This document shows, in pieces, positions 4,905 to 27,146 of a DNA stretch of 31,701 nt (position 1 is its first letter; every line of letters begins with the position of its first letter). The notes under the pieces are model-generated. The model saw only the letters and a program-made list of their open reading frames with translations. It ran no database searches and was not told the DNA's origin. The stretch lies in IMG/VR virus record IMGVR_UViG_3300036781_000593, positions 1 through 31,701 of that record, one strand, 5' to 3'. A program made the position numbers and the translations under genes. This DNA is from a virus.

Positions 4905-7149
4905 TTAGTTCGCGCAGATACGGCAGGCAAATTCCGGCCGGATCGTCTTGATGCCGCCCAGCACATCGAGGCGGGTGTACTTCTGGTTGTCCTTGATCGA
5001 ATAGCCGCGAACGAGGCGAATCGAAATTCCCACGCGCGGATTCGACACTTCCTCGGACCATTCCATGCCGCCCGGCAGTTCCAGCTTCACGATCACAAGA
5101 GTGAACGCGTCACGATGGAAAGCAAGGTTCTGCGCGGAAGTCACGCCCGAGATATTGCCGAGCTGGCCCGAAGGCACGCCATAGACGTACACCTGGGCGT
5201 TGTTCGCCGGGGTCGCGGTCACAGTCTGGAACGGACTGGTGACGTCGATGTTGATGTCCGGCGAGATCGGAATGGTGGCCGCGCCCGCGCCATTTGAAAC
5301 AACCGGTGCTGTGACCACGAAGCTGCGCAGCGAACCCGTATCGTTGTAGCTGATCGGGTTGACCGAGTCCACGCCAGCAAACTGAACGATATCGCCAGCA
5401 TTCAGAACCTGGGTGTTGATTGCCCAGCCGGACGTGGTGATCTGATTTCCGGTCTGGTTGGCGGCGCTGACGACAGGAACGCTACCCGCGCACAGACCAA
5501 CGGACTGGCGGGCAATGTTCTGATCCATCGACCATTTGAAGCCGACGGCCTCGCCCATCTTACCGGTCATGTACTGCTCACCGATAGTTTTGGGCGGGTT
5601 GAAGATGTTGTTCACGAAGCCGAGAACTGCGGCTTCCGAACGAGGGTTCACCAGCAGGGACGTCATACGCCCCTTTGGCATTGCGCTATCCGCCAGCACC
5701 ACACCAGCATCGGTGTAAGTCGTCAGCGACGTGGGCAACACGCCGGGGGTCCCGGCAAAGTTGTAGACGTTGACGTACTGCTGCAGGATCTGGGTGTCGA
5801 TCATATTCGCAATGATCTGCACCGCAGGTTCGACGTACCGCTCGCCAAAGCGATCGATCGTCATGGTGAGGTCCTGGTCCGAGATCTGAAGATCCTGGCC
5901 CCAGAGTTGGTTGACGGTTACCGGGACCACCGTTTCACGGATGGACTCGGGCTGCATCTGGTCGCCGATGCGACCGCGGAAGCGCACAGGAATCAATTAT
6001 GTTCAACGCGGTTCGCGGCCGCGCCCGCCCACTTTACTGGGCTGCTGAACGTTATCCGTTCAGTTCAGACTATCTCTTCAGGCCAGTGGCCTGCATCGTA
6101 CTTCGGAGCGCTTGCCCCTACTCCCTTGCGGGATAGTCGTTACAGCTTCCCCTTGAGGGGCTCGCCTCGGTGTTGCCGGGTGCCTTTCGGTCCTTCGGGT
6201 TTCACCGATATCTCGATGTTATTCACTGGCCGGTTGCCCGGTCAGGCCGCTATTCTGTTTGAATGACGGGCGTTGAAGGTATACCCGATCTTGTCCCCTG
6301 GCAAAGCAAATTGTGGATCGACACTTGTGTTCAACCGCAGACGCTACGCTGCGATCCGCCCGAAGGCTGCTCCATCTTATCGAGTGGAGGTCAGATCATA
6401 TCATGAGCCGCTTTCGCGGTTCCGGTGCGCTTCGGCTCGCTTGAGCCTACGGTCTTGCGACCTGATCGTTACACCTTTCCTGGTGAGGACAAACTCCATT
6501 GTTCAGGCGCTTGCCATGCTGGCAATTTGCGCATAACACCTGGAGTCCTTCGACAAAGCCATGCGTGATCAGCCATCGATACGTGACCATTCCCGCAGCG
6601 CCCTGTTTCCCGAAATGTGCTTTCCTGAACTCTCCCCCGTCGTTATTGACGTGGTCGAGCGTCAGGAATAGCTTTTCCATCTCCCCACAACATGCACACT
6701 TCCATCCTCCGTAGTGCTGAAATACCTTGTCTTTCATCAGTTGGGTCTTTCCGCGACCGTACTGATTACCTTGACGTTTGATCTCAGCGTTCTTTGGGCC
6801 GTAGTATCGAGAATTGGTCCTCTTGCCAGTACAGGATCTGCATTCCGCTGCCCTGCCGTGCTTTCCGGACTTCTTCTCGTAGAAGTCATCGAGCGGTCCA
6901 GAATGACCGCACTTTGTGCATGTTTTCTTCAGGTCTTGGCTCGGTGTTGCCGTTTCCATAATCAATGTTAATTGATATGAAAGTCCGGTGTCCACCGAAT
7001 TCACACCGTTTGCAATGGGCGATTACTCGCCCATGGAGCCCGGCTTACGCCGACTCGCGATTCACATACTTTGCCGCTGTGAGATTGTTCTCCCAGCGTA
7101 TGAGGCTATCCTGTGCCACCGCCACCGGGTTAATAAGTTCGTTGGCCAT
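4905..7149 (-). CDS. Major coat protein, P22 type, split by two group I introns
   Basis: Major capsid protein of the P22 coat (gene 5) family. The gene is join(7149-7053, 6321-6266, 5993-4905), giving 413 residues, close to the family's 430. Exon 1 encodes MANELINPVAVAQDSLIRW up to KYVNRE; the 56-nt exon 2 encodes FDPQFALPGDKIGYTFNAR; exon 3 begins IPVRFRGRIGDQ and continues through the DLTMTIDRFGERYVEPA stretch typical of the family. Joined, the text reads VNREFDPQFALPGDKIG and NARIPVRFRG, as in intact homologues, with no frame break. Without splicing exon 1 stops after 34 codons, and exon 3 has only a TTG near its start. Scaffold lies upstream. AGGAG is 14 nt before the ATG. Confidence 0.88.
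5994..6265 (-). ncRNA. Group I intron 2 in the coat gene (no ORF)
   Basis: A 272-nt self-splicing intron. P1: exon CCGU pairs with CGG and a G of the internal guide GCGG, giving the U.G pair at the splice site, and AUUC/GAAU extends the helix. P2 is CUGACCGG-GCAA-CCGGCCAG. P7 pairs GACTAT (in AACGACTATCCC) with ATAGTC (in GAGATAGTCTGAAC); P6 is CCC-GCAA-GGG. The intron ends at G5994, and the next exon bases AUUC can pair with GAAU as P10. The splice removes an in-frame stop. Confidence 0.85.
6322..7052 (-). ncRNA. Group I intron 1 in the coat gene, carrying an HNH gene
   Basis: A 731-nt intron. P1: exon GAGU pairs with GCUC and a G of GGGCUC, giving U.G at the splice site, extended by CGGC-GUAA-GCCG. 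P2 is UGGGCGA-GUAA-UCGCCCA. P6 is GGTC-GCAA-GACC; P7 pairs GATCA (in AACGATCAGG) with TGATC (in ATATGATCTGACC); a CCGC-GAAA-GCGG hairpin lies between. The intron ends at G6322. The core TGTAACGAYYA..GCAAG..GTAGG..CAAGCG..CCGAAG is shared with intron 2. It encodes an endonuclease. Confidence 0.85.
6447..6959 (-). CDS. Intron-encoded HNH homing endonuclease
   Basis: A 170-residue HNH nuclease expected to cut intron-lacking coat genes and so spread its intron. The N-terminus has a zinc ribbon (C14, C17, C40, C43). The HNH core includes CACC at about 88-91, LDHVNNDG at 101-108 and VLCANCQHGKR at 141-151. I start at ATG 6959; a GTG at 7004 would add 15 residues but is less family-like. Neither has a good ribosome binding site. 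The last codons overlap the intron's catalytic core, including one strand of P7. A second zinc-ribbon HNH gene is at 17651. Confidence 0.85.
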   Translation of the reverse strand: METATPSQDLKKTCTKCGHSGPLDDFYEKKSGKHGRAAECRSCTGKRTNSRYYGPKNAEIKRQGNQYGRGKTQLMKDKVFQHYGGWKCACCGEMEKLFLTLDHVNNDGGEFRKAHFGKQGAAGMVTYRWLITHGFVEGLQVLCANCQHGKRLNNGVCPHQERCNDQVARP

Positions 7150-7286: not shown

Positions 7287-8522
7287 TCAGAGCATGCCGC
7301 GCATCTTCCGGACATCGTCAACGCTGAGCGCGCGCTGTTCGGCCGGCGTCATGTCTTCATAACGCTTCGCCGATTCAACGCCGCGGGCGCCGACGGGATC
7401 GATCGGAGTTGCTTTCTTCGTGGGCGGTTTTTGAGTGGTAGTTGGCGCGGCTGCTGCCGCTGCCGGCGGTCTTTGCTGCTGCGCGGGGCGTTGTGGTTGC
7501 GAACTGATGCGTGCTGCAGAAGCGTCTACCTCTGGATCAGGTTCCGCTTCGTCAGCCTTGTCATCAGCGCTTCCGGGATCCGCTCCGGCGGCTGCAGTAT
7601 CTTCGTCGGCTGCTAACTGCTCGATTTTGTCGAGTTCCCGGGTCGCGATCTTCACCAGTTTGGGATTATCGGAAATAAGTCCTTCCGTAAGTCCCTTGAT
7701 GCGTTTCGATTCCTCGGGGTGCTCGGCGAGATATTGCGCGATTCTGGCGGGGTCTTCCATGGTGAGGAGCATCGCCCGCATGGGTTCAGTGGTGTTTGGA
7801 AGATTTTCGGCGAGCTTCTGCCGCAGTCCGGACTTCTTGTCGTCGGGAAGCCGCTTCTCGAGGGCTTCGACCGATCCAAGAAAGAGTTTGGTGGCCGCGT
7901 CTGCCGTCTTTGGAGGTTCGGCCGCCGCCGGGACTACCGGAGCCGCCTTTTCCTCAACTACTTTGGGCTTCGCGCGCTCAGCGACTGCCTTGTCGTGTTC
8001 GACCTTCTTGTCGCGCCAATCAAACAACGCATCTTCGTAGGCCTGATCAGGATCGTCAGATTCGAAGAACTCGGCCTTGGTCGGTCGCTTCGGGGCTTCC
8101 GGTAATGGCGGTTCGACAACTGCTCGCGGGGGATTCTTTCGCAACTCCTCAAGCTGGGACGTGGTGGACGTCTGTGCCTTGCGGAGTTCCTCGACTTCCC
8201 GTTTCAGTTGACTGTTCGCCTCGGTCGCCTGACGTAGCGCTTCCTGGTCTCGTTCCCGGGCTTCCTTACGACGCTGGTTCCGGCTCTTGCGCTCAGTTTC
8301 TTCCGCATTTGCGGCATCTTCGCGCGCCTGCTGGTCTTTGGTCTCCTGCTCAACCCGGGCGGTCTCTGCGGCCTCCTGGATTTCTTCGGGAGTCTGTTGC
8401 GTCGCTTCCTGCTCGACTGAGGACACGTTGTATCCGAGGCTGCTCATTACCTCGGCGATCTTCTCGGCTGATTGCGTCTTGGAAGACACAGCCAGTTCCG
8501 GTAATTCTTCTGCCACTGCCAT
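7287..8522 (-). CDS. Scaffolding protein
   Basis: A 411-residue acidic, highly helical protein located immediately upstream of the coat gene, the usual place for a scaffold. Residues about 45-130 form long Glu/Gln/Arg-rich coiled coils; the middle is helical (FLGSVEALEKRL); an Ala/Pro/Gln-rich linker leads to a short basic and helical C-terminus (SAKRYEDMTPAEQRALSVDDVRKM), which in scaffolds is the coat-binding end. Scaffolds are poorly conserved, so the call rests on position, size and composition. AAGGAG lies 11 nt before the ATG. Confidence 0.75.
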   Translation of the reverse strand: MAVAEELPELAVSSKTQSAEKIAEVMSSLGYNVSSVEQEATQQTPEEIQEAAETARVEQETKDQQAREDAANAEETERKSRNQRRKEARERDQEALRQATEANSQLKREVEELRKAQTSTTSQLEELRKNPPRAVVEPPLPEAPKRPTKAEFFESDDPDQAYEDALFDWRDKKVEHDKAVAERAKPKVVEEKAAPVVPAAAEPPKTADAATKLFLGSVEALEKRLPDDKKSGLRQKLAENLPNTTEPMRAMLLTMEDPARIAQYLAEHPEESKRIKGLTEGLISDNPKLVKIATRELDKIEQLAADEDTAAAGADPGSADDKADEAEPDPEVDASAARISSQPQRPAQQQRPPAAAAAAPTTTQKPPTKKATPIDPVGARGVESAKRYEDMTPAEQRALSVDDVRKMRGML

Positions 8523-8621: not shown

Positions 8622-9605
8622 ATGTCAACCACAGCACCAATCGAACTGCACTTATTGAATCTTGGAGCGGGCGTGCAGAGCACCTTCCTGTATTTGATGG
8701 CCTACTTGTCTGCCGTCATGAACGGTGAACTGGAGGGATCGCCATGGTCACTGAAAACGATTGCCAGCATGACGGAAAGTGAGCGTGATTTTGTTCGGCG
8801 CTTTCCTTACCGGTTCGACTATTCGATCTTTGCTGACACGCAAGACGAGCAGAGTCACACGATGCGCAACCTTCAATGGCTGATCAGTCTCAAAGGTTCG
8901 CCAATTCTTTCCCGCACTCGCGGGAGCATCCGATCAGATCTGGTGACAATCGATACTGGGAATGGTCGCTTTGCGACCATTCCCGCCTACACCGAGAATG
9001 GCGGAAAGGTGCAACGCCAGTGCACAAAGGAATACAAACTTGAAGTCATTGCCAAGTGCATTCGTCGCGAACTACTTGGCCTTGAACCTGGGCAGCGCGT
9101 TCCGAAAGGGACGAAGGTTCATCAGTACTTTGGGATATCGCTCGACGAAATGGGCCGCGCGGGAAGCATCACCCGTGCGATGCGCCGCCCGTTCGACGAA
9201 GACAGTCTTGAGTTTTGCCCTGATGATGATTTCGCTTGGGCAGAGCCGCATTTCCCACTGGTTGATGCCTATATAACCCGCGCACATTGTGAGTCGTTCC
9301 TGAGTGGAAAGACACCAGAGTTGGTTGAGCAATCGGCCTGCAAGATTTGCCCTCAAAGAGACAAATTCAACTGGGCGAGAATGGCCAGGAATCACCCGGA
9401 AGAGTTCGCTGAGGCGGTCGAGTTTGATCGCGCGATCCGCGAGATTCCCGGTTTGATGATTCAGCGCGGACTGTCTGAGCCACTGTACCTTGACAGGGAG
9501 TGCAAGCCACTCGATGAGATAGATCTTCCTTCTGACGTCGACCCCAGAAAATCCCAGTTAGGGATAAATTTTGCTGATGAATGCCTGGGGGTGTGCGGGT
9601 CTTAG
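8622..9605 (+). CDS. PP-loop ATPase, PAPS reductase-like
   Basis: A 327-residue protein of the adenine-nucleotide alpha-hydrolase/PAPS reductase superfamily. The PP-loop appears as NLGAGVQSTFLYLM near the N-terminus, where a SxGxxS-type loop binds ATP pyrophosphate. A conserved CKICPQRDKFNWARMARNHP stretch near residue 245 is typical of the phage branch of this superfamily. The substrate is unknown; nucleic-acid or sulfur chemistry is possible. It stands alone on the plus strand in a minus-strand block, ends tail-to-tail with the portal gene with a 4-nt overlap, and looks like an acquired cargo gene. An upstream ATG at 8601 is possible. Confidence 0.75.
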   Translation: MSTTAPIELHLLNLGAGVQSTFLYLMAYLSAVMNGELEGSPWSLKTIASMTESERDFVRRFPYRFDYSIFADTQDEQSHTMRNLQWLISLKGSPILSRTRGSIRSDLVTIDTGNGRFATIPAYTENGGKVQRQCTKEYKLEVIAKCIRRELLGLEPGQRVPKGTKVHQYFGISLDEMGRAGSITRAMRRPFDEDSLEFCPDDDFAWAEPHFPLVDAYITRAHCESFLSGKTPELVEQSACKICPQRDKFNWARMARNHPEEFAEAVEFDRAIREIPGLMIQRGLSEPLYLDRECKPLDEIDLPSDVDPRKSQLGINFADECLGVCGS

Positions 9606-11839
9606 GGAGTTGCCGGAGCCGCGCTCTGCGCGCTGCCCTTGCTGTCTGGGTTCGCCGTCTCATCGGAAGCCGCCAGTGCCGCTTCCCGTTGACGGAACGT
9701 CTCAGCGATTTCTCCCAGCAGGGCGTTCGAATCCGCGCTCTTCGCCTTGATGAGCGCTTCGAGGATACCGGCGAAGTCGCCATGAAGCGCCACGCGCTCC
9801 TGCGATGCCAGTTTGAGGCGTTCGGCCATTACCTTGTTGCCGAGTTCCTGAACGGACGCAGTGAGTTGCTGGATGATGGCCTGCTGCTGTTGCGCGTGCT
9901 GCATCAACTGCTGGAGCGTTGGGCCGCCATCTTCAGCCGGGATGTCCGGCGGGCGCAGGCGCGCCGCAATGGCATCACCGTCCGGAAGGTCGAGGAATCC
10001 GATCAGAAGATCGAGTGCACGCGACATGGGCCCGGGGATGAACTTCACCAGATCCATCAGCGCCGCAGCGCCTTCCTGTCGGCGGGTCGCATACGCCGTG
10101 CCAGACTTCATGACCACGTCGTACCGCGCTATGCCATGGGTCTGAGCCAGATCGTAGAAGCGCTGTGCCCCGTCCTCAAGAACGGCTGCGTTGATCTTTA
10201 CCGACCGGATCTTCTTGTCCGGATCAAAGATCGAGATCGCGCGCTCTTCGCTGTAGACGACTGGAATCAGGTCGAGCCGAATCCGCGCATCGTGCCGCAC
10301 TGACCGCGACAGATTGTCGAAATAGTTAAAGTGGGCGTTGTCGCTGTTTTTCTTCTGTGCAAGGATTGAGCGCCCGCTGGCCTCGGAGACTGGGTTCCCG
10401 AGATCTGGCCGGTAAACCTGAGTCAGGGCTTCGATATCCTGCTCGGCGTGCGCGATCGCCAAGGTGATTGCCTGCACCTGCGCATCAGCCGTATTGAGCC
10501 GAGTTGGCGGGGGGACAGGCTTCCCATTTACCTCAGTCAGGTATGGCAGGACGGCATACGCCTTACGGTTCGCATCGGCCCACAGGCTCTCGAATTGTCC
10601 GAGAGATCCTATCGCCGCTATCACCGGCGCAATCGGGGCGAGGGCAATGCTCTCAGCCTGTTTCGACCGCATGAAGTCGTAGGACAGGTTCGCATCCATC
10701 GCCGGGCGAATCATGCCGCGGAGCGATCGCTTGCCGTTCTTCCAGATCTCGTCCCCGATTACCGGGATGAACGGGATCCACTTCCCGGGCCATTCCCAGC
10801 GCTTGATTACCTGGCCGCCGGTGATCTTCGCGCAGTATATTTTCGTCTCGAACAGTTCCCGGGTGGCTTTCGGAATCGCGTCGTACAGGTGCTCGTCTGG
10901 AACCACCGCTCCGCTCTCGAGAAGGTGAATCTTGCGCTTGGTTCGTTCCTTATACCAGTACTCTGCAACGCGGATGGCCCCATTCGGGAACCAGTCCATT
11001 TTTATGCGATCACCGACAGCTTCAAACCCGACGCCGCCACCCATCATCGCAATGGTGCGCTCGACATCCTCGCCGTAGAGTTCCTTGAACACGTCGCGGT
11101 CGAAATCCTCGGTATGGAACAGGTAGTCCATATCGGAGAAATCGAACTCCATCGCCGCCGGATCGCGATAGACAGAGAAGGTGTTCGGAATGCGCCTCAG
11201 CAGCAACTTCTGCATGAATGCTTCCTGCGATTCAGGGTTATCCGTCTCCCAGTCGAACAGGACGCGGAACCAGCCCAGGCCGATCTTACAGGCCTGCTCA
11301 TATGCAGTCATGTAGACGGTATCGCTTCCGGAATCGTTGTCGATGTTCCGGAACAATCCCTGAATGACCTGCGCCGTTTCCTTGTCGGCCCCGCCGCCGA
11401 CCGGCGCTACTTCCGGCTCTGGCGGTGATTGGCGCGCTTCGTTGACGACCTGCTTGACGGCCGGCGTAATGCGGTCGAAGGTCAGGCACGGGCGCCCGGT
11501 GCGCTCCGCCTTCATCGCTTCGTCCCAATGCTTCAGGCCGTCAGTGAAGTCGAGTTCTTCCTTCGCATCGCGGCGCCACTCATTCTCCGAGGACACGCAA
11601 CGCGCGAACCGCTCCCGAGCCTTGGTAAGGAACTCCTCATCCGGATCGGTGATGGTTTCCGGCTGCTTCGTCGCGCTGACGATTACGAGACCGCTTGGTG
11701 TGGTGCGACTGGTCTTGACGGACGTTGTTACGCCGAGGTCGAGGACGGGCGCAAGTGTGGCGTCAGGTACCGGTCGATTTACGCCAGTGGCTTTGGATGA
11801 TCGGACAGAATTGTCCGGACGGTTGGGCTGTACGGCCAT
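9602..11839 (-). CDS. Portal protein, P22 type
   Basis: A 745-residue portal protein forming the head vertex ring through which DNA is packaged and the tail attached. Its length is close to P22 portal (725). Family-like features are the FTDGLKHWDEAMK..RTGRPCLTFDRI start of the wing/stem region, the ARQSPPEPEVAPVG segment, RRIPNTFSVYRDP, and the DTGNPV-like PDLGNPVSEASGRSILAQK stretch. Residues about 640-710 form a Gln-rich coiled coil (LMQHAQQQQAIIQQL), comparable to the barrel helix. It lies in the terminase-portal-scaffold-coat order. The ATG has no strong ribosome binding site. Confidence 0.9.
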   Translation of the reverse strand: MAVQPNRPDNSVRSSKATGVNRPVPDATLAPVLDLGVTTSVKTSRTTPSGLVIVSATKQPETITDPDEEFLTKARERFARCVSSENEWRRDAKEELDFTDGLKHWDEAMKAERTGRPCLTFDRITPAVKQVVNEARQSPPEPEVAPVGGGADKETAQVIQGLFRNIDNDSGSDTVYMTAYEQACKIGLGWFRVLFDWETDNPESQEAFMQKLLLRRIPNTFSVYRDPAAMEFDFSDMDYLFHTEDFDRDVFKELYGEDVERTIAMMGGGVGFEAVGDRIKMDWFPNGAIRVAEYWYKERTKRKIHLLESGAVVPDEHLYDAIPKATRELFETKIYCAKITGGQVIKRWEWPGKWIPFIPVIGDEIWKNGKRSLRGMIRPAMDANLSYDFMRSKQAESIALAPIAPVIAAIGSLGQFESLWADANRKAYAVLPYLTEVNGKPVPPPTRLNTADAQVQAITLAIAHAEQDIEALTQVYRPDLGNPVSEASGRSILAQKKNSDNAHFNYFDNLSRSVRHDARIRLDLIPVVYSEERAISIFDPDKKIRSVKINAAVLEDGAQRFYDLAQTHGIARYDVVMKSGTAYATRRQEGAAALMDLVKFIPGPMSRALDLLIGFLDLPDGDAIAARLRPPDIPAEDGGPTLQQLMQHAQQQQAIIQQLTASVQELGNKVMAERLKLASQERVALHGDFAGILEALIKAKSADSNALLGEIAETFRQREAALAASDETANPDSKGSAQSAAPATP

Positions 11840-12673: not shown

Positions 12674-13027
12674 CTACCTGCGTTGTTTCTTGCGCGATTC
12701 CTTGATCCGCTCCTGCTCGGCAATGTACTTGCTTACCGCTTCTGATGCATTCCTATTGGCTTTTTCAAGGGAACACTTCAGGTCAACGATCTCCCTGGCG
12801 TGATTGTCGCGCTCCTGATTGGCGAATAGAACATTTCTGTTCTGCTGCTGGAGGGACTGATCCAATTGAGCGTAGTCAACTTTTTCCTTCGAGAGATCTG
12901 CAAACAGCCTATTGAACGCTTTCTGCAGTTTGTCGTTCTGCTCGTTGAGGAGCCTTATTTCGCTCATCAATTCAGACCGGTCTGAGCGCCCGGCCATTCG
13001 AATGATTTCGAATCCGAAGATTTTCAC
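12674..13027 (-). CDS. Hypothetical coiled-coil protein
   Basis: A 117-residue protein almost entirely helical, with heptad-like ELMSEIRLLNEQNDKLQKAF and a Glu/Arg/Lys-rich C-terminus ending RKKQRR. It begins at GTG overlapping the stop of the GroES-like gene (GTGA), so the two are translationally coupled. Function unknown; a structural or DNA-binding adaptor is conceivable. Confidence 0.65.
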   Translation of the reverse strand: MKIFGFEIIRMAGRSDRSELMSEIRLLNEQNDKLQKAFNRLFADLSKEKVDYAQLDQSLQQQNRNVLFANQERDNHAREIVDLKCSLEKANRNASEAVSKYIAEQERIKESRKKQRR

Positions 13028-13509
13028 TCGGACTCCTCCAGAACGGCCATCACATGCTGTTCGGCGAGCAGAATAACCAGCGTGTCGTCTTCGAGTCCGA
13101 GAGACGGGAATCGCCCCGGATGCAACTTTGCGTCACGCCGGTTCTCGTAGAGCACGATGTCACCGACATTCACCGGCATCTCGGCGTTAAGCGGACCATC
13201 TCTGAGCAATGTCGTCGTTCCAGAACAGCGACCGCACCTGAAGTTCTTGGCTGTACTCAGGCGGACGCTAAAACATTTGTCGTTCTCTTCCCCTATGAGG
13301 CAGCATCGGTCGCAATGCAGCCTGACCATCCTGTCGCCGGGCCCGGTCGCCAGAACCTCGCCACGGTGCAGATAGTCACCGCCGCTCTGGTGGATCTTGC
13401 GAAACTCCTGAGCTGATATCGGGATGTGAATTAGGCCCTGCATGTCCGCTGTTCCAAGACACCGAATCAGGACCTGGTCGCCAAGAAGGCGGATGTTGCT
13501 TATTTCCAT
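13024..13509 (-). CDS. GroES-like co-chaperonin with zinc-ribbon insertion
   Basis: A 161-residue Cpn10/GroES-like protein that would cap the host GroEL during folding of virion proteins. The N-terminal part (GDQVLIRCLG..GLIHIPISAQE) matches the first strands and mobile loop with a GGIIIP-like motif; GEVLATGPG at 50-58 and MPVNVGDIVLYE at 111-122 match the core; LVILLAEQHVMAVLEE is the usual end. Between them residues 66-95 add CDRC...CGRC, a zinc ribbon absent from ordinary GroES (about 95-105 residues). A -10 box ends 7 nt before the ATG. Confidence 0.8.
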   Translation of the reverse strand: MEISNIRLLGDQVLIRCLGTADMQGLIHIPISAQEFRKIHQSGGDYLHRGEVLATGPGDRMVRLHCDRCCLIGEENDKCFSVRLSTAKNFRCGRCSGTTTLLRDGPLNAEMPVNVGDIVLYENRRDAKLHPGRFPSLGLEDDTLVILLAEQHVMAVLEESE

Positions 13510-13516
13510 GCTTTAC

Positions 13517-13546
13517 ATCTTACGCCATCCACGATCTTGGTGTCGA
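13517..13546 (-). promoter_or_regulatory. Promoter for the GroES-like gene
   Basis: Minus strand: -35 TCGACA (13546-13541), 18-nt spacer, -10 TAAGAT (13522-13517), then GTAAAGC and ATG. The 13-mer GATGTAAAGCATG is repeated exactly at the KTSC gene start. It overlaps the end of the terminase nuclease gene. Confidence 0.55.
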
Positions 13547-14275
13547 TGGGATCTTCGGCGGTTGCGCGGATACTGATCGCTGCCGGACCTTCATGATATC
13601 CCGGCCAGAGACCCATCCATACCGAAGGGCATCGCAGAGGTGATCGTCTTTTTTGACAACGCGCCCTTTGTCATCCCGTCGGTAAATCCGCATCTGCCGC
13701 AGTAACTTCTGGCAGGTCTCTACGATTTTCAACTGTCCGCCGACTAGAGCGTCAAGAACCGCCTCGATGCCAGCGCTTACGGAATTCTCAGCGGGAATCA
13801 AGCTCACGCCGGCTGCACGATAATTCTCCATCAGCCGATCGCCATCCTTCTGGTTTCGCTGATTGGCCGCCGGGTCGCATGCTCCGGTCATCCAGTCGCC
13901 CTTGGCTTTTATTTCCGCAGCGTGGATCGAGTAAGGAGCATCTTCACGCGCATATTCCTGGTAGACATAGTAGATTCCGCTGTCAGGATCTCTGGCCATC
14001 CATACCGCCGCTGTGACGCGAATTCCAACGTCAAGGGCGAAGGATTTAGGCCAAGAGGATGGAATCCCTCCTTTCAGCGCCGCAACAACGTACTCCGACT
14101 CCGAGACCTGAAAGATCGCTCCGGCGCCAAGTTGCGGGATACCTTTTGATCTCGCGTCACGTTGCCAAACCGGAATCGAAGAGAGAAGGCTGGTTTTGGA
14201 CTCCTCGCTCAGGTGTGGGCAGGAGTCCCAATCCGCTTGCGTTACCCACCTCTCACCAAGATATTTGTAGGCCAA
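13520..14275 (-). CDS. Terminase large subunit, C-terminal nuclease half
   Basis: A 251-residue ORF corresponding to the RNase H-like nuclease domain of a phage large terminase, which cuts DNA at the start and end of packaging. WVTQADWDSCPHLSEESK and QRDARSKGIPQLGAGAIF match the linker and first strand of this terminase family; acidic candidates are D82 (LDVGI), D134 (GACDPAAN) and D211/D215 (KDDHLCDALRYG). It has no ATPase motif: that half is encoded at 18945-19733. The start TTG 14275 lies 6 nt after the KTSC gene stop, in the same frame, with no clear ribosome binding site. Coupled re-initiation or RNA joining is possible. Confidence 0.85.
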   Translation of the reverse strand: MAYKYLGERWVTQADWDSCPHLSEESKTSLLSSIPVWQRDARSKGIPQLGAGAIFQVSESEYVVAALKGGIPSSWPKSFALDVGIRVTAAVWMARDPDSGIYYVYQEYAREDAPYSIHAAEIKAKGDWMTGACDPAANQRNQKDGDRLMENYRAAGVSLIPAENSVSAGIEAVLDALVGGQLKIVETCQKLLRQMRIYRRDDKGRVVKKDDHLCDALRYGWVSGRDIMKVRQRSVSAQPPKIPSTPRSWMA

Positions 14276-14281
14276 GGAGAA

Positions 14282-14500
14282 TCAATCAGCCTTCCGCGCC
14301 TTATGCCCATGGGCGGCCTTGAACACGGTGTTGAAGTGCTTGCCAGCCGACTCCGCCGCGATCAGCGCTTTCACGTCTTCGTCCGGCACATCGTGGTACG
14401 TGTACGTCCCCTTATGCAGGAGTTCGACGTGCACGGTCTTCGTCTCCGGGTCGTGGCTTACCGCCTGCACCAGCGTGCTATCGAGAGGCGTTCTTTTCAT
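14282..14500 (-). CDS. KTSC domain protein
   Basis: A 72-residue KTSC-domain protein. The motif layout (RTPLDSTLVQAVSHDPETK, then HVELLHKGTYTYHDVP and FNTVFKAAHGHK) fits this small family, which is often fused to or encoded beside nucleic-acid enzymes and whose role is not well known. It precedes the nuclease half of the terminase in the same frame, separated by one stop and two codons. The start codon is 7 nt after a good -10 box. Confidence 0.8.
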   Translation of the reverse strand: MKRTPLDSTLVQAVSHDPETKTVHVELLHKGTYTYHDVPDEDVKALIAAESAGKHFNTVFKAAHGHKARKAD

Positions 14501-14507
14501 GCTTTAC

Positions 14508-14536
14508 ATCATACCCCTGAAGCGGAGGGGAATCAA
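14508..14536 (-). promoter_or_regulatory. Strong promoter before the KTSC/terminase-nuclease genes
   Basis: Minus strand: -35 TTGATT (14536-14531), 17-nt spacer, -10 TATGAT (14513-14508), then GTAAAGC and the ATG. The spacer itself is an inverted repeat, CCCCT-ccgcttc-AGGGG, so it could be an operator. The mRNA would be leaderless. Confidence 0.65.
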
Positions 14537-14791
14537 TGAAGGACGGCAACCGTCGAACGCCCCGGCTGCGGATCTCCCGCCGCTCTCTACCTCCTCCGCC
14601 TCAGAGAATTACGCTCGCGACCGGGCCCGACCGAAGTCCTCGGAGGTTAAGATCTCCGGCCAGGCTCAAAACGAATCCGCCTCAAGGAGGGGGTGGCGGA
14701 CTCATGTTTTTGCACTGTCGCGAGCGGGCGCTACCCGGTGCCGGTTTAACCCCGGTATCTTACTCCGGCCTGCGCCAAAACCGTCCCTTGT
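14537..14791 (-). other. Stretch without a convincing gene
   Basis: About 255 nt between the exported protein at 14792 and the KTSC promoter. The minus strand can form a 9-bp hairpin (GAGTCCGCC with GGCGGATTC). An open plus-strand frame of about 100 codons is proline/arginine-rich and low in complexity, so I do not call it. No tRNA or group I core motif was found. Confidence 0.4.
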
Positions 14792-15802
14792 CTACTGCAA
14801 CGCCAATCCGTAACTCTGCAACGGAACTGAAATAGCAATGGTCTGTCCCGGCATTATCACCGATGGCACTGGCGCAACAGGCTTTTCCGGCGCTGCCTTA
14901 ACGGGCTGCCCATCGCTGAATCCCGGCTCGTCCCACTGATCCACGATGAACACCTTGCCGGTTTCCAGCAGCCGTGGCGTGGTAACCGCCATGAACGGAT
15001 CAGGCTTCACCGCTTCGTAGTTGCTGATAAGGAACATGACATCCGGCTCACACTCCAGCAGCCTTGCCGCGTTGGTGATTACGCGCTCTGGAATGGCGTG
15101 TGGGTAGGAGGTGTTCAGTATGCGCATGGAGCCGGCGGTGCGTCGCGCAATACCGCTTATCAAATTGGAGTCTTTCGGTCGCATCGGCTCCCACGCAATC
15201 TCAACTCCGTGCTGGGCCGTTGATAGTTTTCGAGCTTGACCAACCAGATAGTTTTCGACTGCGCCCGCGTCGTATACGTTCAGCTCAAGGTTGTGGATTG
15301 CATCCAGCATCCTTGCTTCATCGGTCGCGGCGGAATCAAGGCCGATCGATTTGGCCAGCTTCAGGTAGGCAGCGGGAACCAGCTTGTCAGGCGAGATCGG
15401 CTTGGCAGCGGCGCGGACATCAACCAACGTGACAACGGGGCTGCGTGAAGCGTCGGCGCTGTAGGCAATCAGCATGCCGTTGCCAGCGCCCCCGGCGCAT
15501 ACAAGTTCTCCCGTAATGGAACTCATCGCGATGACGCAGTTGCCAGAAAAACCACCGCCGCCAACGGCGAGACTGCCTACCGCGTTGGTAAATCCACCTG
15601 TCGTCATGCCACCCGCTGCAACAGGTACGGTCGACCATGTACCAGTGGTCACAACCCCAGAAGTGCCATGTGGAACACTTCCGACGGATTCGTGCTTATG
15701 CGTTCGCGCGTTGCCGGGTTGATCAACTTGCCCAAAAATCCCCATCGCCGCCGACAGCAGCAGGAATGGAGCGAAAACAATAGAACAACAGTTTAGCTTC
15801 AT
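14792..15802 (-). CDS. Exported protein of unknown function
   Basis: A 336-residue protein with a signal peptide (about residues 1-25, ending GIFGQ). The region after it is glycine/threonine-rich and beta-like (TGTWSTVPVAAGGMTTGGF), as in phage surface proteins. The C-terminal half is a distinct alpha/beta domain with FLISNYEAVKPDPFMAV and VFIVDQWDEPGF; I do not recognise it. It lies in the segment that separates the two terminase halves. A -10 box TATACT ends 6 nt before the ATG. Confidence 0.75.
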   Translation of the reverse strand: MKLNCCSIVFAPFLLLSAAMGIFGQVDQPGNARTHKHESVGSVPHGTSGVVTTGTWSTVPVAAGGMTTGGFTNAVGSLAVGGGGFSGNCVIAMSSITGELVCAGGAGNGMLIAYSADASRSPVVTLVDVRAAAKPISPDKLVPAAYLKLAKSIGLDSAATDEARMLDAIHNLELNVYDAGAVENYLVGQARKLSTAQHGVEIAWEPMRPKDSNLISGIARRTAGSMRILNTSYPHAIPERVITNAARLLECEPDVMFLISNYEAVKPDPFMAVTTPRLLETGKVFIVDQWDEPGFSDGQPVKAAPEKPVAPVPSVIMPGQTIAISVPLQSYGLALQ

Positions 15803-15808
15803 GGGTAC

Positions 15809-15814
15809 AGTATA
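15809..15814 (-). promoter_or_regulatory. -10 element of the exported protein gene
   Basis: Minus strand TATACT followed by GTACCC and the ATG. The -10 is near consensus; a matching -35 is not clear. Confidence 0.45.
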
Positions 15815-15858
15815 GGCGGATTCGTGGACTCGTAACTCAATAACTTCGCCGGATCGCC

Positions 15859-16221
15859 TTATTCGTCGTCCTCGTCGTCATCCTTCTCGTTCTTGCCCAT
15901 GTCCTTTTTGTCTTCAGCGTCCATCTTACCCGACTTGGTCTTGTCGTCCTTATTGCCGGGCGCTTTGCCATTGCCGAGGATCTCGCCGAGCTTCGTCTGC
16001 ATGTCCTGCTCCGCATTGTCGCCGCTGAACACATGCTCATCCACCTTCGGCGACATATACATGCCCTTCTCGCCTTCAGCGCGCGGATGTTCATGGTGCA
16101 AGGTGTAACCGTTCGCTGCGCCGCGGATGCGGAGTTCAGCAAAATTGTGCTTCATGGCGCCCCGTTTGGTCGCCATGGCGGTCACCTTCCCGGCGGCCGA
16201 CTTGCTTTTGGAATCTGCCAT
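15859..16221 (-). CDS. Hypothetical acidic-tail protein
   Basis: A 120-residue protein: basic N-terminus, a middle with HNFAELRIRGAANGYTLHHEH and an Asp/Glu/Lys-rich disordered C-terminus ending DDDEDDE. I chose ATG 16221 because AGGAG lies 8 nt upstream; the longer frame to 16260 has none. The middle looks like a short phage motif of unknown role. No membrane segment. Confidence 0.65.
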   Translation of the reverse strand: MADSKSKSAAGKVTAMATKRGAMKHNFAELRIRGAANGYTLHHEHPRAEGEKGMYMSPKVDEHVFSGDNAEQDMQTKLGEILGNGKAPGNKDDKTKSGKMDAEDKKDMGKNEKDDDEDDE

Positions 16222-16272
16222 GTTCGTGGCTCCTTCAGGAAATTGTGGGCGGAATTTCACCGCCCTGTGTTG

Positions 16273-16590
16273 TTATCCGGCCAGCCGATTGTTGATTGAG
16301 CGGAGATATCCGCACATCATAGCCACCCGGCTGCACGCTACGGCTATCTTTCCGTCGAGTGATGACGCACCTTTTGAACTGTCCGGCGGTGCTGCGTCAG
16401 GTTCGAACAGGAATGAATTCAGGCGCGCCTGCTCGCCCTCCAAATCCAGAATGAGCTTCAGGAGTTCATCTGCCTTTTGGTGGGTACATGGTTCACTTGG
16501 TTGCTCGTTACGAGCCTGCTGGTTGGCAGGGCCGCGACTTCCGAAGACTGGAGAGGAGACATCTAAATCGCTTTTTATGGTGTTATACAT
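16273..16590 (-). CDS. Hypothetical protein
   Basis: A 105-residue protein with a disordered, Pro/Asn/Gln-rich first third and two helices after it (about 40-62 and 80-102, VACSRVAMMCGYLRSINNRL). No domain recognised. It lies between the membrane-protein genes and the acidic-tail gene in the same direction. Confidence 0.55.
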   Translation of the reverse strand: MYNTIKSDLDVSSPVFGSRGPANQQARNEQPSEPCTHQKADELLKLILDLEGEQARLNSFLFEPDAAPPDSSKGASSLDGKIAVACSRVAMMCGYLRSINNRLAG

Positions 16591-16612
16591 GCCGAGCGCA
16601 GGGGTATTAAAT

Positions 16613-16894
16613 TTAAGACTGCGCTGGTGGTTCGACGGTCACGCGGGTTTGCGTGTCCACGGTTGACGTCTGTACGGCGATTGCCTTTTGAGCTTCAGGA
16701 TCTTTTGGTCCGCTGCCGCTGTAAATCTTCTGGGCGATCACTCCGAGAGCTGTGACCGCTCCGGTGATGGCGCTCGCAACGGCCAGCAGCACCGGGCCGT
16801 CTTCCTTCTTGTCTATCAGCGACAACCCGACAAGCGTGCCAGAGAGCACGATGATCGCGGCGATGATTCCGAGCAGTGGCGCGTGGTCTCTCAT
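16613..16894 (-). CDS. Two-segment membrane protein, possible holin
   Basis: A 93-residue protein with two membrane segments, residues about 7-25 (LGIIAAIIVLSGTLVGLSLI) and 34-54 (VLLAVASAITGAVTALGVIA), separated by a short charged loop DKKEDG, and a hydrophilic tail. Size and layout fit a class II holin, which would permit lysis, but no endolysin is seen next to it. The start ATG overlaps the previous stop. A role in DNA delivery is another option. Confidence 0.6.
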   Translation of the reverse strand: MRDHAPLLGIIAAIIVLSGTLVGLSLIDKKEDGPVLLAVASAITGAVTALGVIAQKIYSGSGPKDPEAQKAIAVQTSTVDTQTRVTVEPPAQS

Positions 16895-17109
16895 GGAGTT
16901 TTCCGAGCGGTCGCCATCCACACTGGGCCGATCTCATCGGCGGGCATCAACTGGAATCCGGCTATCCTCGCGGTTTTCAGCATAGCGGCATCAACTCTGT
17001 TTGCCCATTCCAGCAATACGGGATCGCTGTAACGGTTTGCGGACTTCTTGATCGATATCGCTAAGTCGATCTGGCCGGTCTTCTTGAAAGAGATCGGAGC
17101 GCCCATCAT
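16891..17109 (-). CDS. Hypothetical protein
   Basis: A 72-residue protein starting MMGAPISFKKTGQIDLAISI. Its ATG overlaps the stop of the exported protein upstream and its stop overlaps the next start, so it is coupled on both sides. Mostly helical; no recognised family. Confidence 0.6.
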   Translation of the reverse strand: MMGAPISFKKTGQIDLAISIKKSANRYSDPVLLEWANRVDAAMLKTARIAGFQLMPADEIGPVWMATARKTP

Positions 17110-17708
17110 AGGCCGAACACCCTTCGGTACCACGGCTTACGTCTCGGCGCGGCATGCCACACCGGCGGCCATGTGATCCCTGGGGTCACCAGCGACGCCT
17201 GGCCCTCGTACAACCATGACCCATTCACGCAGTTGTACACCCCGGCGTTCTCGATATAGAGCACAGGCAACACCGGCAGCGCATTCACGTTACAGGCCCC
17301 ACTCGGAACCGTCAGCGGATAGTAGCTCGGGAATCCCACCCACACCGTAGCCCCCATCGCATGCCCCTGCACGTACGATCCCTGGCATCCGCGGTTCACC
17401 GGAACATAGCCGTTCACCAGCGGGCCGGTCACGCACATCGCCTCCTGGTCGACCATCAGGATCTGGTTCGTGTGCCCGGTCGGGTCGCCAATCCCAGAGG
17501 TCGAGATCGGATTGATCCCGGGAATGATCAGCGACGGGTTCGCGATCAACACTCTGTTCTGAAATGGCTGGCTCGAAGGCCATCCGGCCACCGGTGCCGC
17601 GAGCGTGGTTGTTGGAAAGGTCGCCGGCTGCGCGCACAGGCTGATGACGCTCAGCAGTCCGATGATAATTGCTGTTTGCGGGTTCGATCCGCGCGTTTGG
17701 CGAGCCAT
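17106..17708 (-). CDS. Exported structural-region protein
   Basis: A 200-residue protein with a signal peptide (about residues 1-27, AIIIGLLSVISLCAQ). The body has MVDQEAMCV...VNRGCQGS...HAMGATVWVG, the same virion motif as the gene at 3703, and GACNVNALPVLPVLYI...VYNC...W, the shared cysteine module. It ends with a basic tail. The first 58 nt overlap the end of the HNH gene. Likely a shorter paralogue of the coat-neighbour exported protein. Confidence 0.75.
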   Translation of the reverse strand: MARQTRGSNPQTAIIIGLLSVISLCAQPATFPTTTLAAPVAGWPSSQPFQNRVLIANPSLIIPGINPISTSGIGDPTGHTNQILMVDQEAMCVTGPLVNGYVPVNRGCQGSYVQGHAMGATVWVGFPSYYPLTVPSGACNVNALPVLPVLYIENAGVYNCVNGSWLYEGQASLVTPGITWPPVWHAAPRRKPWYRRVFGL

Positions 17709-18865
17709 ACGATCAGTGGTAGCGTCCCTTTTGAACTGTTGTTTTCGCGAGAGGTTACGGTCAGATTGTCAGGAGCGTTCGTGCCGCCACGGGATATCGC
17801 GGACAGGTGATCCACGGTCGGGACATCGATCAACTTTGATTCGTAGACGTCCCAGTACTGATCCCCGATCCGATAAGATTCCAAGGCAGAAGCAATTGCC
17901 TCTCGAACCTCGGGCATCTTACGGTCATCGCCAAACGCTCGGCGCCTGGCGATATTGGCTACCGCGCGAAGACGATGCTTTTCCGGATTGCGTCGGCGCT
18001 CCTCTATATTCCGAAGGCGAATGCGCTCTTTGTTGCGTTGAAAGTGATCGGCAAGATAGGCCTTTTCCCGCTTGGAGATGCTTGGGTCAGAATCTTTGCT
18101 GGCCTTACGTTTCAAATAATACTGACGGGCCTTGTCTGGATCACTGGGAACCCGGCTGGCGGTATAGCATTGCTTACATCGCGATGCCAGACGAGTGCCA
18201 CGTTTAATCCTGCCGAATAGATTTGGGTCTTTGATCTCACTACACCTGGAACAGCGCTTTGGCTTATCTACTGGATGCGGAGGAACGCCCTTCGGAGTTC
18301 CCTTCCGTACCAACTTGGACCGCTCATGCAGTTGTCGGCACGGGTCACACATCGAGTGAAGTTTTCGGCTACTTCTTCCCGTGGACGTCTTGTAGATGCG
18401 CAGGCGAAACTTCTCGAATGACTTTGTCTCTCCGCACCTATTGCAGGTCTTTGACCATGGAATAGGCTTAAGATCTTTCTCTTTTCTTGCCTTTTTGCGG
18501 CGGCACTTTGCCCGGCAATCTTTGCATGTTCCCGCGATGCAGTAACTGACTGTTCCTCGTTTCGCGACTTTCCTGGTTATGTCGTAGCGCTCGATCGGCT
18601 TAGTTTCGCCGCACTTCTTACAGGTAGAGTCGACTGGGATAGCCCTGCTTGGCCTTCTTCCTCGGCGCAGCGGCTTTTGATGGCACTCTCGGCACTCAGC
18701 AGAAAGCTTAACGCTTGTCCTGCCTGTCATGGTGAGATATTCGCATCGGTAGAATCTCGATGCGGGCAGGAATTCCTTGCAGCGTGAACAGTATTTACTT
18801 ACCGGAAGAGGCTTCAGCGCACGAAGCGGATATGGTTTTTTCTGTGGTAGGCTTTGGTCAGCCAT
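17651..18865 (-). CDS. HNH endonuclease with four zinc ribbons
   Basis: A 404-residue HNH nuclease. Four similar CxxC-x(20-35)-CxxC modules occupy about residues 20-260 (for example KYCSRCKEFLP, CKKCGETKP, CNRCGETKS, CSRCSEIKD); a basic helical linker follows; the HNH core is TVDHLSAISRGGTNAPDNL with the final N in SRENNSSKG. Start ATG 18865 has AAGGAGAG about 8 nt upstream; a GTG at 18907 is less likely. It lies directly after the ATPase half of the split terminase and is probably a free-standing homing endonuclease linked to that split. Confidence 0.85.
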   Translation of the reverse strand: MADQSLPQKKPYPLRALKPLPVSKYCSRCKEFLPASRFYRCEYLTMTGRTSVKLSAECRECHQKPLRRGRRPSRAIPVDSTCKKCGETKPIERYDITRKVAKRGTVSYCIAGTCKDCRAKCRRKKARKEKDLKPIPWSKTCNRCGETKSFEKFRLRIYKTSTGRSSRKLHSMCDPCRQLHERSKLVRKGTPKGVPPHPVDKPKRCSRCSEIKDPNLFGRIKRGTRLASRCKQCYTASRVPSDPDKARQYYLKRKASKDSDPSISKREKAYLADHFQRNKERIRLRNIEERRRNPEKHRLRAVANIARRRAFGDDRKMPEVREAIASALESYRIGDQYWDVYESKLIDVPTVDHLSAISRGGTNAPDNLTVTSRENNSSKGTLPLIVWLAKRADRTRKQQLSSDC

Positions 18866-18944
18866 CTTCGAACTCTCCTTCGAATGCTGGTTAGAGGCTG
18901 CCGTCACTGGACATGACGTCGGCCTCGATTTATTCTACCGCAAC

Positions 18945-19733
18945 TTAAACCGGTATCTGCGTCTCTGGCACCACTCCGTCTGGCATAAATTGCTGGACCA
19001 CATCACTCAATCCACGTAGGGGGCTGAACGTTAAGAGCAAAAGACCATCTACGGTCATAGTTCGCATCAGACATTCTGTGTAAACGTCAAGAGGAATTTC
19101 TTCATCGGCCCAAATAAAGTGCTGAGCAGTACCTTCAAAAGCTGTACTTGTTTGTTCGTACGACTTGAACCCAAGCACGCTTCGCTTCCCTGAGACGTGC
19201 CTGACCCAAGCTGTCTTAACCGCGCCGCGGATCTGTGCGTGGAATTCCACCGATGCTATCAGGTTGGCCGGAATCATCCCGGTACCCATCCCGATTATGT
19301 CGTCACCAACTGCGTCATCCTTCTCGAACCTACCCAGCAATTCCGCTTGCACAATATTCTTGGTAGTTTCATTGCTGGTTCCGCAGGCCCATGCAGATAT
19401 TGCCGTTTCGAACTTCCTTCCCTCCCACCAGTCTGGGTAAATTCCTGACAAATGACATGTTAGTTCAAATGCGCCAGTTGTAGTTTTACCGGTACGGTTT
19501 CCTGCCACGAAGGCTCGACTCCTGTAGTATTTTCCCGCTCTCATCAACTCCAGGTGCTTTGGATATAAGTCGCGCCTATGTGGACCAGACGACGGGAATA
19601 GGGTCTCGATCTTGTTGAGTGATCGGCGCTTCTTTTCGTCCGCGATGCTTTTGAGCTCGCGGTCAACGCGAGCGATCGCGTCGATGGGGCTGGTTAAGTT
19701 CGATTGTGGCTGGTCTGACCAGTGAGGCTGCAC
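18945..19733 (-). CDS. Terminase large subunit, N-terminal ATPase half
   Basis: A 262-residue ORF holding the ATPase domain of the packaging motor. Walker A is GNRTGKT (78-84); the adenine-side and C motif context includes YPDWWEGRKF; VRHVSGKRSVLGFKSYEQ is typical of the family; Walker B with the catalytic Glu is FIWADEE (207-212). It ends at VVPETQIPV and a TAA, exactly where homologues continue into the nuclease domain, which is found 4.7 kb further on at 14275. The GTG start overlaps the preceding gene by 40 nt. Confidence 0.88.
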   Translation of the reverse strand: MQPHWSDQPQSNLTSPIDAIARVDRELKSIADEKKRRSLNKIETLFPSSGPHRRDLYPKHLELMRAGKYYRSRAFVAGNRTGKTTTGAFELTCHLSGIYPDWWEGRKFETAISAWACGTSNETTKNIVQAELLGRFEKDDAVGDDIIGMGTGMIPANLIASVEFHAQIRGAVKTAWVRHVSGKRSVLGFKSYEQTSTAFEGTAQHFIWADEEIPLDVYTECLMRTMTVDGLLLLTFSPLRGLSDVVQQFMPDGVVPETQIPV

Positions 19734-19921
19734 AGGGTGTCTTCGGAGTAGGTATCTACAGAGCGAGGAAGGCTGCGGAAGTCAGTGAGGCGACAGAGGA
19801 GCCAGCACTTTGCTGACCCGTCATAGAGAGATCCAAACGTCAGGGCGCTTGGACACGCGCAGAGGGTCGCGATGAGGATGTACTCTTCCCGGGTCTGCGC
19901 GAGGTCCAGCAGTTCCTTCAC
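19694..19921 (-). CDS. Hypothetical protein
   Basis: A 75-residue protein with a GTG start overlapping the stop of the Acb2-like gene (GTGA). It is cysteine- and leucine-containing with no clear domain; the C-terminal end overlaps the terminase start. Real by coupling rather than by homology. Confidence 0.5.
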   Translation of the reverse strand: MKELLDLAQTREEYILIATLCACPSALTFGSLYDGSAKCWLLCRLTDFRSLPRSVDTYSEDTLCSLTGQTSHNRT

Positions 19922-20187
19922 AGCGACTTTCCGTTCAGGCTTACGGAGGCATTCGCTGTGAACAGCGCCTCACGCACTTTTCGAATGGCGGCTGATCTAT
20001 CCGCGCTCGGCGGGCAATTGATCATAATCGCCTTCAGAAGTTGCCCGGCAGTCTCACGCAGTACTTTCATCCGCGCAAGCTGATCAGGAGTCGGCGAGTG
20101 ATAGGAAACGATATCGTCGACCTCCTTGCTGATCCACAGAAGATCTTCCGCGGTTAACTCACTGGGGTGTACGGCGCAATGATCCAA
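19918..20187 (-). CDS. Acb2/Tad1-like cyclic-nucleotide sponge (anti-defence)
   Basis: An 89-residue helical protein resembling the Acb2/Tad1 hairpin domain family, which binds the cyclic oligonucleotides or cADPR-type signals used by CBASS and Thoeris and thereby blocks these defences. The signature is the C-terminal helical hairpin: ETAGQLLKAIMINCPPSADR followed by SAAIRKVREALFTANASVSL, with the cP-s-x-A-I-x-K-x-x-E-A-x-x-x-A-N-A spacing of the family. The start is TTG with GGGGAG 8 nt upstream. The N-terminal 35 residues are variable. Which messenger is bound cannot be told from sequence. Confidence 0.75.
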   Translation of the reverse strand: MDHCAVHPSELTAEDLLWISKEVDDIVSYHSPTPDQLARMKVLRETAGQLLKAIMINCPPSADRSAAIRKVREALFTANASVSLNGKSL

Positions 20188-26310: not shown

Positions 26311-27146
26311 CACGCATCAACAAATCCGAATCTTTTGATATGTCCGCGCGCGCGCTACCTTCCGAAGGTGGAGAGGGAGCGGTTTCCCCCTTCCAGCATC
26401 CAGACCATTCAGGCGCCTGCGTAAATGCGGGCGATTGCTGCTCGTGGATGTGCGACAGGTGCGAAAGCATCCGGCATTTGACACCTGCGCCGGATCAGAC
26501 TAACATTGCAACCAGAGTCGCCGGCGGCGCGCAACGGAAACCCATCAGCGCGTTGACTGGACTGGCTACCGGAACCTCGGAATCTTCATTGACGAGCCGA
26601 GGGACGAGCGGAAGCTCAGAAGAAACGGTAGTTGAGGGAAGCGAAAAGGCTTCAGGCTCGAATCCTCGAAACAGCAGCAAGTTTTGGGGTGGGGGGAGAA
26701 CTTCGCCTTCCGATGACACTTCAAGCGCTGACGAATCCAGAAGAGAAAAAGACGGGTGTACGGTTTGCGGCAGGGCTGATGTAGCAGGAGCGGGGCCTAG
26801 CGCAGACGGATGCCCGCATTCGTTCGAGAGCCAGAAACATTCTGCTGCGGTGCACGGTTCAATCCGGTGGGGGATCGACAACGGGCGGTGTTACGACGTT
26901 GGGGGGATCAGGCGGTACGGGCAACTGGTAACAGACGCGGGGTCGCATGTGGAAGCTGCACAGATGGCGCTGTACAAGGGGGAGAAATACAGCGTGTGGG
27001 TGCCGAACGGTACGGTGCTCGAGGTGTGGAAGGTGGGACCGGTCCACGATTACATGCGGTCTGAGAAGCGCTCGTTTGTGGTGCATTACGGGCAGGCGCT
27101 GGTATCGATTCTCGATTCTCTGACGGTTGAAGGGGGTGCGCGATGA
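26307..27146 (+). CDS. Hypothetical protein with cysteine clusters
   Basis: A 279-residue protein. The first 50 residues include CVNAGDCCSWMCDRCESIRH, the middle (about 75-150) is a Ser/Gly/Glu-rich disordered linker, and CTVCGRADV...GCPHSFES may be a second metal site. The last 90 residues are structured (RYGQLVTDAGSHVEAAQMAL). No family recognised; a zinc-binding DNA-associated role is possible. ATGA overlaps link it to both neighbours. Confidence 0.6.
   Translation: MTRINKSESFDMSARALPSEGGEGAVSPFQHPDHSGACVNAGDCCSWMCDRCESIRHLTPAPDQTNIATRVAGGAQRKPISALTGLATGTSESSLTSRGTSGSSEETVVEGSEKASGSNPRNSSKFWGGGRTSPSDDTSSADESRREKDGCTVCGRADVAGAGPSADGCPHSFESQKHSAAVHGSIRWGIDNGRCYDVGGIRRYGQLVTDAGSHVEAAQMALYKGEKYSVWVPNGTVLEVWKVGPVHDYMRSEKRSFVVHYGQALVSILDSLTVEGGAR

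Follow-up and report, generated by a model that had tools for sequence, protein, structure and literature searches.

Two open reading frames for the large terminase of a P22-like metagenomic phage and a probable two-chain DNA packaging motor

The DNA analysed in the current study (hereafter the window) is the whole of the metagenomic IMG/VR virus record IMGVR_UViG_3300036781_000593, 31,701 b in length, in which the large terminase subunit (TerL) is encoded by two open reading frames (ORFs) that lie 4,669 nucleotides (nt) apart:

18945-19733, minus strand: TerL-N, the ASCE ATPase core; 262 amino acids (aa), GTG start, ending in PETQIPV before the stop codon
13520-14275, minus strand: TerL-C, the lid subdomain, linker, RNase H-like nuclease and C-terminal tail (SWMA before the stop codon); 251 aa, TTG start

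A first-pass annotation of the sequence had claimed that the large terminase is divided between two ORFs 4.7 kb apart, and this is upheld both by family matches (PF03237 Terminase_6N, 7.4e-13, and phrog_31467 for TerL-N; PF17289 Terminase_6C, 2.1e-11, and phrog_5653 for TerL-C) and by single-chain relatives (e.g. L002, L003 and L068), which align over both window ORFs with no conserved part lost or doubled. The junction alignment likewise agrees with the claim that the C ORF picks up at the next homologous position after the PETQIPV end of the N ORF. TerL-N carries a Walker A motif (GNRTGKT), a Walker B motif with the catalytic glutamate (ADEE) and motif III (TFSP), in which residues K83, D210, E211 and T235 are conserved, while the acidic nuclease residues D82, D134 and D211/D215 are present in TerL-C; every catalytic residue is retained, as is the C-terminal tail. 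The proposed check for a second, intact terminase was run over the 31,701-b record and found none, since each half is matched only once.

Two further genes of the head module lie downstream of TerL-C:

9602-11839, minus strand: P22-like portal gene (PF16510, 6.6e-136)
4905-5996, minus strand: P22-like coat gene (P22_CoatProtein; PF11651, 1e-29)

The genes of this region are all co-oriented within a P22-like head module and, because P22-type portal and coat genes follow it, the TerL pair is considered to be the phage's own packaging module. In its combination of the PF03237 and PF17289 families with a P22 portal and coat, the window resembles P22 gp2 and other Terminase_6 proteins; the nuclease of an intact homologue aligns to the P22 TerL nuclease (4dkw, Z 23.7) and its fold to that of D6E TerL (Z 22.6). 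Unlike the single-polypeptide P22 gp2, which unites core, lid and nuclease in one chain, the window TerL is distributed over two genes, cut at the loop between the ASCE core and the lid, with 4.7 kb between them. At the DNA level, the sole match found for the region was one of 72 nt to EBPR podovirus 1.

The position of the cut was deduced from alignment with single-ORF homologues, in which motif III and the helix after it (TFTPLxGLxxVVxxFLP) precede the split sites and the strand K/RxxVxAxWDDVPHL comes next; in intact proteins this stretch is occupied by between 4 and approximately 35 unconserved residues. Every split examined falls in this same variable loop. An AlphaFold2 model of the intact homologue L068 (mean predicted local distance difference test, pLDDT, 86; predicted template modelling score, pTM, 0.72) locates the cut in loop 229-238, which joins helix 221-226 to strand 239-244 and in which pLDDT drops below 50 at residues 231-234. 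Solved TerL ATPase domains (P74-26 and T4) align up to residue ~281 of the model and nuclease domains from ~282, while in D6E TerL the ATPase domain comprises an ASCE core plus lid and the linker to the nuclease spans residues 230-241 (PMC5727402). On the basis of the model, the solved-domain alignment and the D6E domain limits, the N ORF corresponds to the ASCE core, the C ORF to lid, linker and nuclease together. The cut therefore interrupts the ATPase domain itself, at a hypervariable loop that connects the ASCE core to the lid ('transmission') subdomain, and does not separate ATPase from nuclease as the first-pass annotation had it; that boundary has to be shifted because the C ORF includes the lid, some 50 residues of the ATPase domain. 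Breaking the chain in this surface loop, which is hypervariable and modelled with low confidence, costs neither half a conserved residue.

The window had been treated as one odd phage, a view that was revised once viral contigs and species genomes were searched with both halves and their alignments, and the resulting loci classed by two profile hidden Markov models. Both halves were present at 209 loci, 162 of them intact (the annotation had called for such a search for an intact gene) and 47, the window included, split at the loop; a further 21 loci were partial or one-sided, some of which are probably splits running past contig ends. In approximately 12 of the splits the two genes overlap by 4 nt, as ATGA, TTGA or GTGA (e.g. 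L007, L092, L095, L144, L156, L178, L185, L187, L188 and L198), while in others the halves are 0.2-6.3 kb apart with unrelated cargo between them. The arrangement also occurs in MW202785 (L231), a complete circular phage genome with two 'large terminase protein' coding sequences and one TerL place, and in NZ_CP103299, a closed phage-plasmid of cultured Endozoicomonas gorgoniicola, whose one TerL place is split and whose gene order is TerS, TerL-N, TerL-C and then a gene in the portal position. Split-TerL prophages are further represented in Sphingopyxis flava R11H and Methylobacterium sp. R2-1. In a quick maximum-likelihood tree of 153 sequences (LG+G4, concatenated halves; direction of change not inferred), parsimony required 18 changes between the split and intact states, at least 7 of them forced by well-supported branches, compared to a mean of ~37 when labels were shuffled. 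Eight members (L012, L172, L103, L104, L173, L130, L138 and L180) form a stable split clade, and the basal rows of the tree are mostly intact. On this comparative evidence the split is recurrent, yet within clades it is passed on stably.

The Walker A lysine, Walker B aspartate, catalytic glutamate, motif III threonine and nuclease aspartates are equally conserved in split and intact proteins, and variation at two active-site alignment columns is seen in both groups alike. The ratio of non-synonymous to synonymous substitution rates (dN/dS) of the N and C halves of split pairs was 0.03-0.19 wherever dS was unsaturated, so that both halves are subject to strong purifying selection in split relatives. 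Furthermore, the divergence of the N half is correlated with that of the C half, both among split loci (Mantel r 0.61, 0/999 permutations) and among intact loci (r 0.82).

These data argue strongly that the phage uses a two-chain large terminase whose halves would be independently translated and assembled without a peptide bond, with accessory genes gathered at the break. TerL-N would supply the ASCE ATPase core and TerL-C, in one chain, the lid as transmission, the hinge or linker and the RNase H-like nuclease. On the P22-like portal the halves are envisaged to come together and form a packaging motor that is ordinary in other respects, with non-covalent contacts in place of the backbone link between engine and transmission. 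The first-pass annotation had left a choice between two working polypeptides and joined RNAs or proteins; the former is well supported by the comparative evidence, while the latter is unsupported, in view of the lack of any intron or split intein and of the adjacent, overlapping pairs in relatives.

Were the two ORFs exons, with the 4.7 kb removed by cis- or trans-splicing to yield a single TerL, the window would join the terL genes that are split by an intron and genuinely spliced, as in ICP1 (PMC10448857) and the Jug phages (PMC12363816), and presumably in Proteus phage 3H10_20, in whose terL an intron is detected. The window shares with these phages the presence of two terL ORFs, often accompanied by a homing endonuclease, and an HNH gene does lie in its gap; it differs from them in that no intron was found in the window or in the split relatives tested. 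The intron and intein signatures that had been suggested as a check were both absent at the window break: no Rfam intron was found in the window at gathering level, nor at E<=1 across positions 13000-20000, whereas the same search recovered the Proteus group I intron at 73 bits as a positive control, and at gathering level across 14 split loci and this control an intron was found in the control only. Furthermore, eight genes inside a single intron would be extraordinary, relatives with a 4-nt stop-start overlap could not accommodate an intron, introns prefer conserved sites but this junction lies in a variable loop, and almost all C halves begin with a start codon of their own at the junction, so that splicing is considered very unlikely. 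In Proteus phage 3H10_20 itself the group I intron (L233, 611-830) and the split of terL around an HNH gene are at a different position; this phage is annotated with two 'terminase large subunit' genes, and its close relatives Privateer and P59 match in one piece. Post-translational ligation of the halves by a split intein would have a parallel in fractured genes such as gp41 and NrdJ, whose halves are separated by other genes and an endonuclease. The window resembles these in having its halves apart with other genes and an endonuclease gene between, and ordinary cis inteins do occur in the TerL family, at Walker A in L019 and L131. In contrast to the fractured genes, no intein sequence is present at the break, nor any intein motif at the split in any locus examined, and the window N half ends ~11 residues past the last conserved position (FMP) while its C half begins ~10 before the next conserved strand, termini so near to conserved positions that no space remains for intein pieces; ligation is accordingly given almost no weight. 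L019 (989-2197) and L131 (3826-5589) are themselves N halves of a split TerL with an intein inserted at or close to Walker A, the L131 insert (~320 aa) being long enough for a homing endonuclease. Programmed ribosomal frameshifting could be entertained for adjacent pairs in relatives, which overlap in different frames, but the overlap varies by locus (-4, -1, -8 and +1 to +4 nt) and the ATGA type resembles ordinary translational coupling; for the window and other gapped loci it is impossible, in the window because of the 4.7-kb gap, and as an explanation it is barely credible.

Of the alternatives, the least improbable, though still improbable, is that the split reflects artefact or decay, i.e. 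misassembly, a dead prophage with a broken TerL, or an intact TerL off the record. The window is a single, possibly incomplete metagenomic virus record, and TerL-N and the HNH gene are slightly lower in guanine plus cytosine (0.52-0.53 versus 0.57 for the rest). Against this, the same-loop split recurs in independent records, including the complete circular phage and the closed phage-plasmid of an isolate, the catalytic residues and C-terminal tail are all kept, both halves of split relatives are under purifying selection, and the region is co-oriented within its head module. Several observations do weigh against a two-chain terminase. An intact second TerL might, although improbably, lie outside the record, and frameshift errors could lie behind some metagenomic 'splits'. 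The nearest TerL halves are ~50% identical to those of the window, the selection figures stemming from split relatives, and the N half alone was modelled poorly by AlphaFold2 (pLDDT 47, 11 sequences), which may reflect the shallow alignment or a real dependence on the lid. In phage T4, the ATPase and nuclease domains of gp17, when separated without the hinge, keep their activities and lose translocation (PMC9958956). The site of that separation differs from the natural loop cut, which severs the engine-transmission backbone only and leaves transmission, hinge and nuclease on one chain.

The interval between TerL-N and TerL-C contains the HNH gene and seven other plausible ORFs, rather than the eight others first counted, listed here from TerL-N towards TerL-C:

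17651-18907, minus strand: HNH/endonuclease VII-like gene with zinc-ribbon-like repeats, 418 aa, the first gene after TerL-N
17106-17708, minus strand: cargo ORF, 200 aa, no family
16891-17133, minus strand: cargo ORF, 80 aa, no family
16613-16921, minus strand: cargo ORF, 102 aa, membrane-like (by eye), no confident family
16273-16590, minus strand: cargo ORF, 105 aa, no family
15859-16260, minus strand: cargo ORF, 133 aa, acidic tail, no family
14792-15802, minus strand: cargo ORF, 336 aa, signal-peptide-like start (by eye), no family
14282-14500, minus strand: KTSC-domain gene (PF13619, 2.7e-15)

The 418-aa ORF matches phrog_1035 (3e-18) and several HNH PHROGs, with Pfam HNH matches below cut-off only. 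By BLAST among the ORFs of 19 gapped loci, no shared cargo family was found that would explain the break; the cargo varies by locus and often comprises beta-helix-like or structural-looking proteins (by eye), with matches to a virion structural PHROG in L130 and a tail-fibre PHROG in L172. Comparison across loci shows that the junction, once cut, tolerates the arrival of accessory genes, of which the window has gathered 4.7 kb. In MW202785 the gap of 133 nt holds a 46-aa ORF (2858-2995; ATGA overlap with both neighbours) that matches HNH endonucleases over an AP2-like stretch in their interior (phrog_99, 4.7e-5, profile positions 228-265 of 383), and this ORF is a remnant of such an endonuclease. 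An HNH/AP2 pattern scan of the gaps matched in this locus only, although the HNH pattern was too strict and missed the window's own HNH gene, so that the scan carries little weight. Because most gaps show no endonuclease, such genes have either since been lost or are not the general cause of the splits. The 6.3-kb TerL gap of L129 was observed to contain an Acido-Lenti-1 RNA (RF01687; 4472-4518) and a GroES (Cpn10) gene (7645-8043). Outside the interval, an 89-aa protein encoded just upstream of TerL-N (19918-20187, minus strand) has a match to the Acb2/Tad1 hairpin domain (PF24729, 2.4e-10), a family of anti-CBASS and anti-Thoeris sponges, and a DUF3560 protein with a C-terminal methyltransferase-like domain is encoded on the opposite strand (27143-29065, plus strand).

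Concerning expression of TerL-C, its TTG start and lack of a clear ribosome binding site had been pointed out earlier. The description is accurate, although it marks no peculiarity of TerL-C: most genes of this phage, those for the portal and coat among them, likewise lack a clear Shine-Dalgarno sequence. Since the TTG lies 6 nt past the stop codon of the KTSC gene, TerL-C is probably translated by termination-reinitiation after KTSC. One candidate control element of this gene pair was located:

14501-14536, minus strand: possible promoter of the KTSC/TerL-C pair, TTGATT-17-TATGAT, 7 nt before the KTSC ATG; a consensus match only

A TANNNT sequence 6-7 nt before the ATG was found at 6 of 22 examined gene starts (24779, 22608, 20951, 15802, 14500 and 13509, all minus strand), compared to 3.7% of all same-strand ATGs (spacing 5-8 nt), a spacing that suggests leaderless or short-leader transcription and is offered as a lead only, because the gene list was hand-chosen. 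Within the gap, promoters were not enriched (3 versus 3.5 expected by chance) and terminator-like sites were in slight excess (11 versus 6.8). A 27-nt imperfect direct repeat (85%; 13500-13526 and 14491-14517), both copies of which contain GATGTAAAGCATG, flanks KTSC and TerL-C, with one copy where the KTSC gene starts and the other at the start of the gene that follows TerL-C.

The division of an essential phage enzyme has precedents in Aeh1 nrdA, which is split by mobE with the enzyme still active, and in gp43A/gp43B of phages 44RR and 25 and the T4 topoisomerase gene 39/60, enzymes that are divided into separate polypeptides (PMC2988022). Like these, the window would encode an essential enzyme in separately translated chains without splicing; two-chain function is shown or proposed for the known enzymes, and an HNH-type gene can occupy the break. 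As in Aeh1 nrdA, a free-standing endonuclease gene lies between the window halves, intact homologues exist in relatives and nothing conserved is lost. By analogy with mobE, the break in some lineages, possibly including that of the window, probably owes its origin to an HNH-type endonuclease gene or was exploited by one, and the HNH remnant in MW202785 would fit this fission route for some lineages. In contrast to this group, the enzyme concerned here is a packaging motor cut between engine and transmission, and the TerL state changes at least approximately 7 times at one loop, often without an endonuclease and with diverse cargo. In the open-licence papers searched, intron-split terL was the only two-gene terminase encountered, which does not in itself prove novelty; a two-chain TerL is apparently undescribed in that literature, while the type of event, fission of an essential phage enzyme gene, is known.

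Models of the T4 motor assign the role of engine to NsubI, that of transmission to NsubII and that of wheel to the C-domain (PMC9958956). That many distantly related viruses are cut at the same loop suggests that the motor may not need an unbroken chain from engine to lever-plus-cutter, and on balance we favour, with some reserve, the view that a heteromeric packaging motor, with the engine and the transmission-plus-nuclease as separate proteins, has evolved repeatedly in tailed phages. The natural cut is tolerated, in the loci examined, between engine (ASCE) and transmission (lid) and not at the lid-nuclease hinge. TerL, the gene in standard use as a marker for tailed phages, is handled as a single protein. 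Since the N-half family phrog_31467 is labelled 'unknown function' and the C half of NZ_CP103299 is annotated 'hypothetical protein', TerL-based surveys may overlook phages with a split TerL, or may count them twice. If the two-chain motor is real, force would pass between the ASCE core and the lid without a backbone link and the two chains could be expressed at different times or ratios; the position of the cut would thereby constrain power-stroke models and offer ready-made two-component motors for biochemistry.
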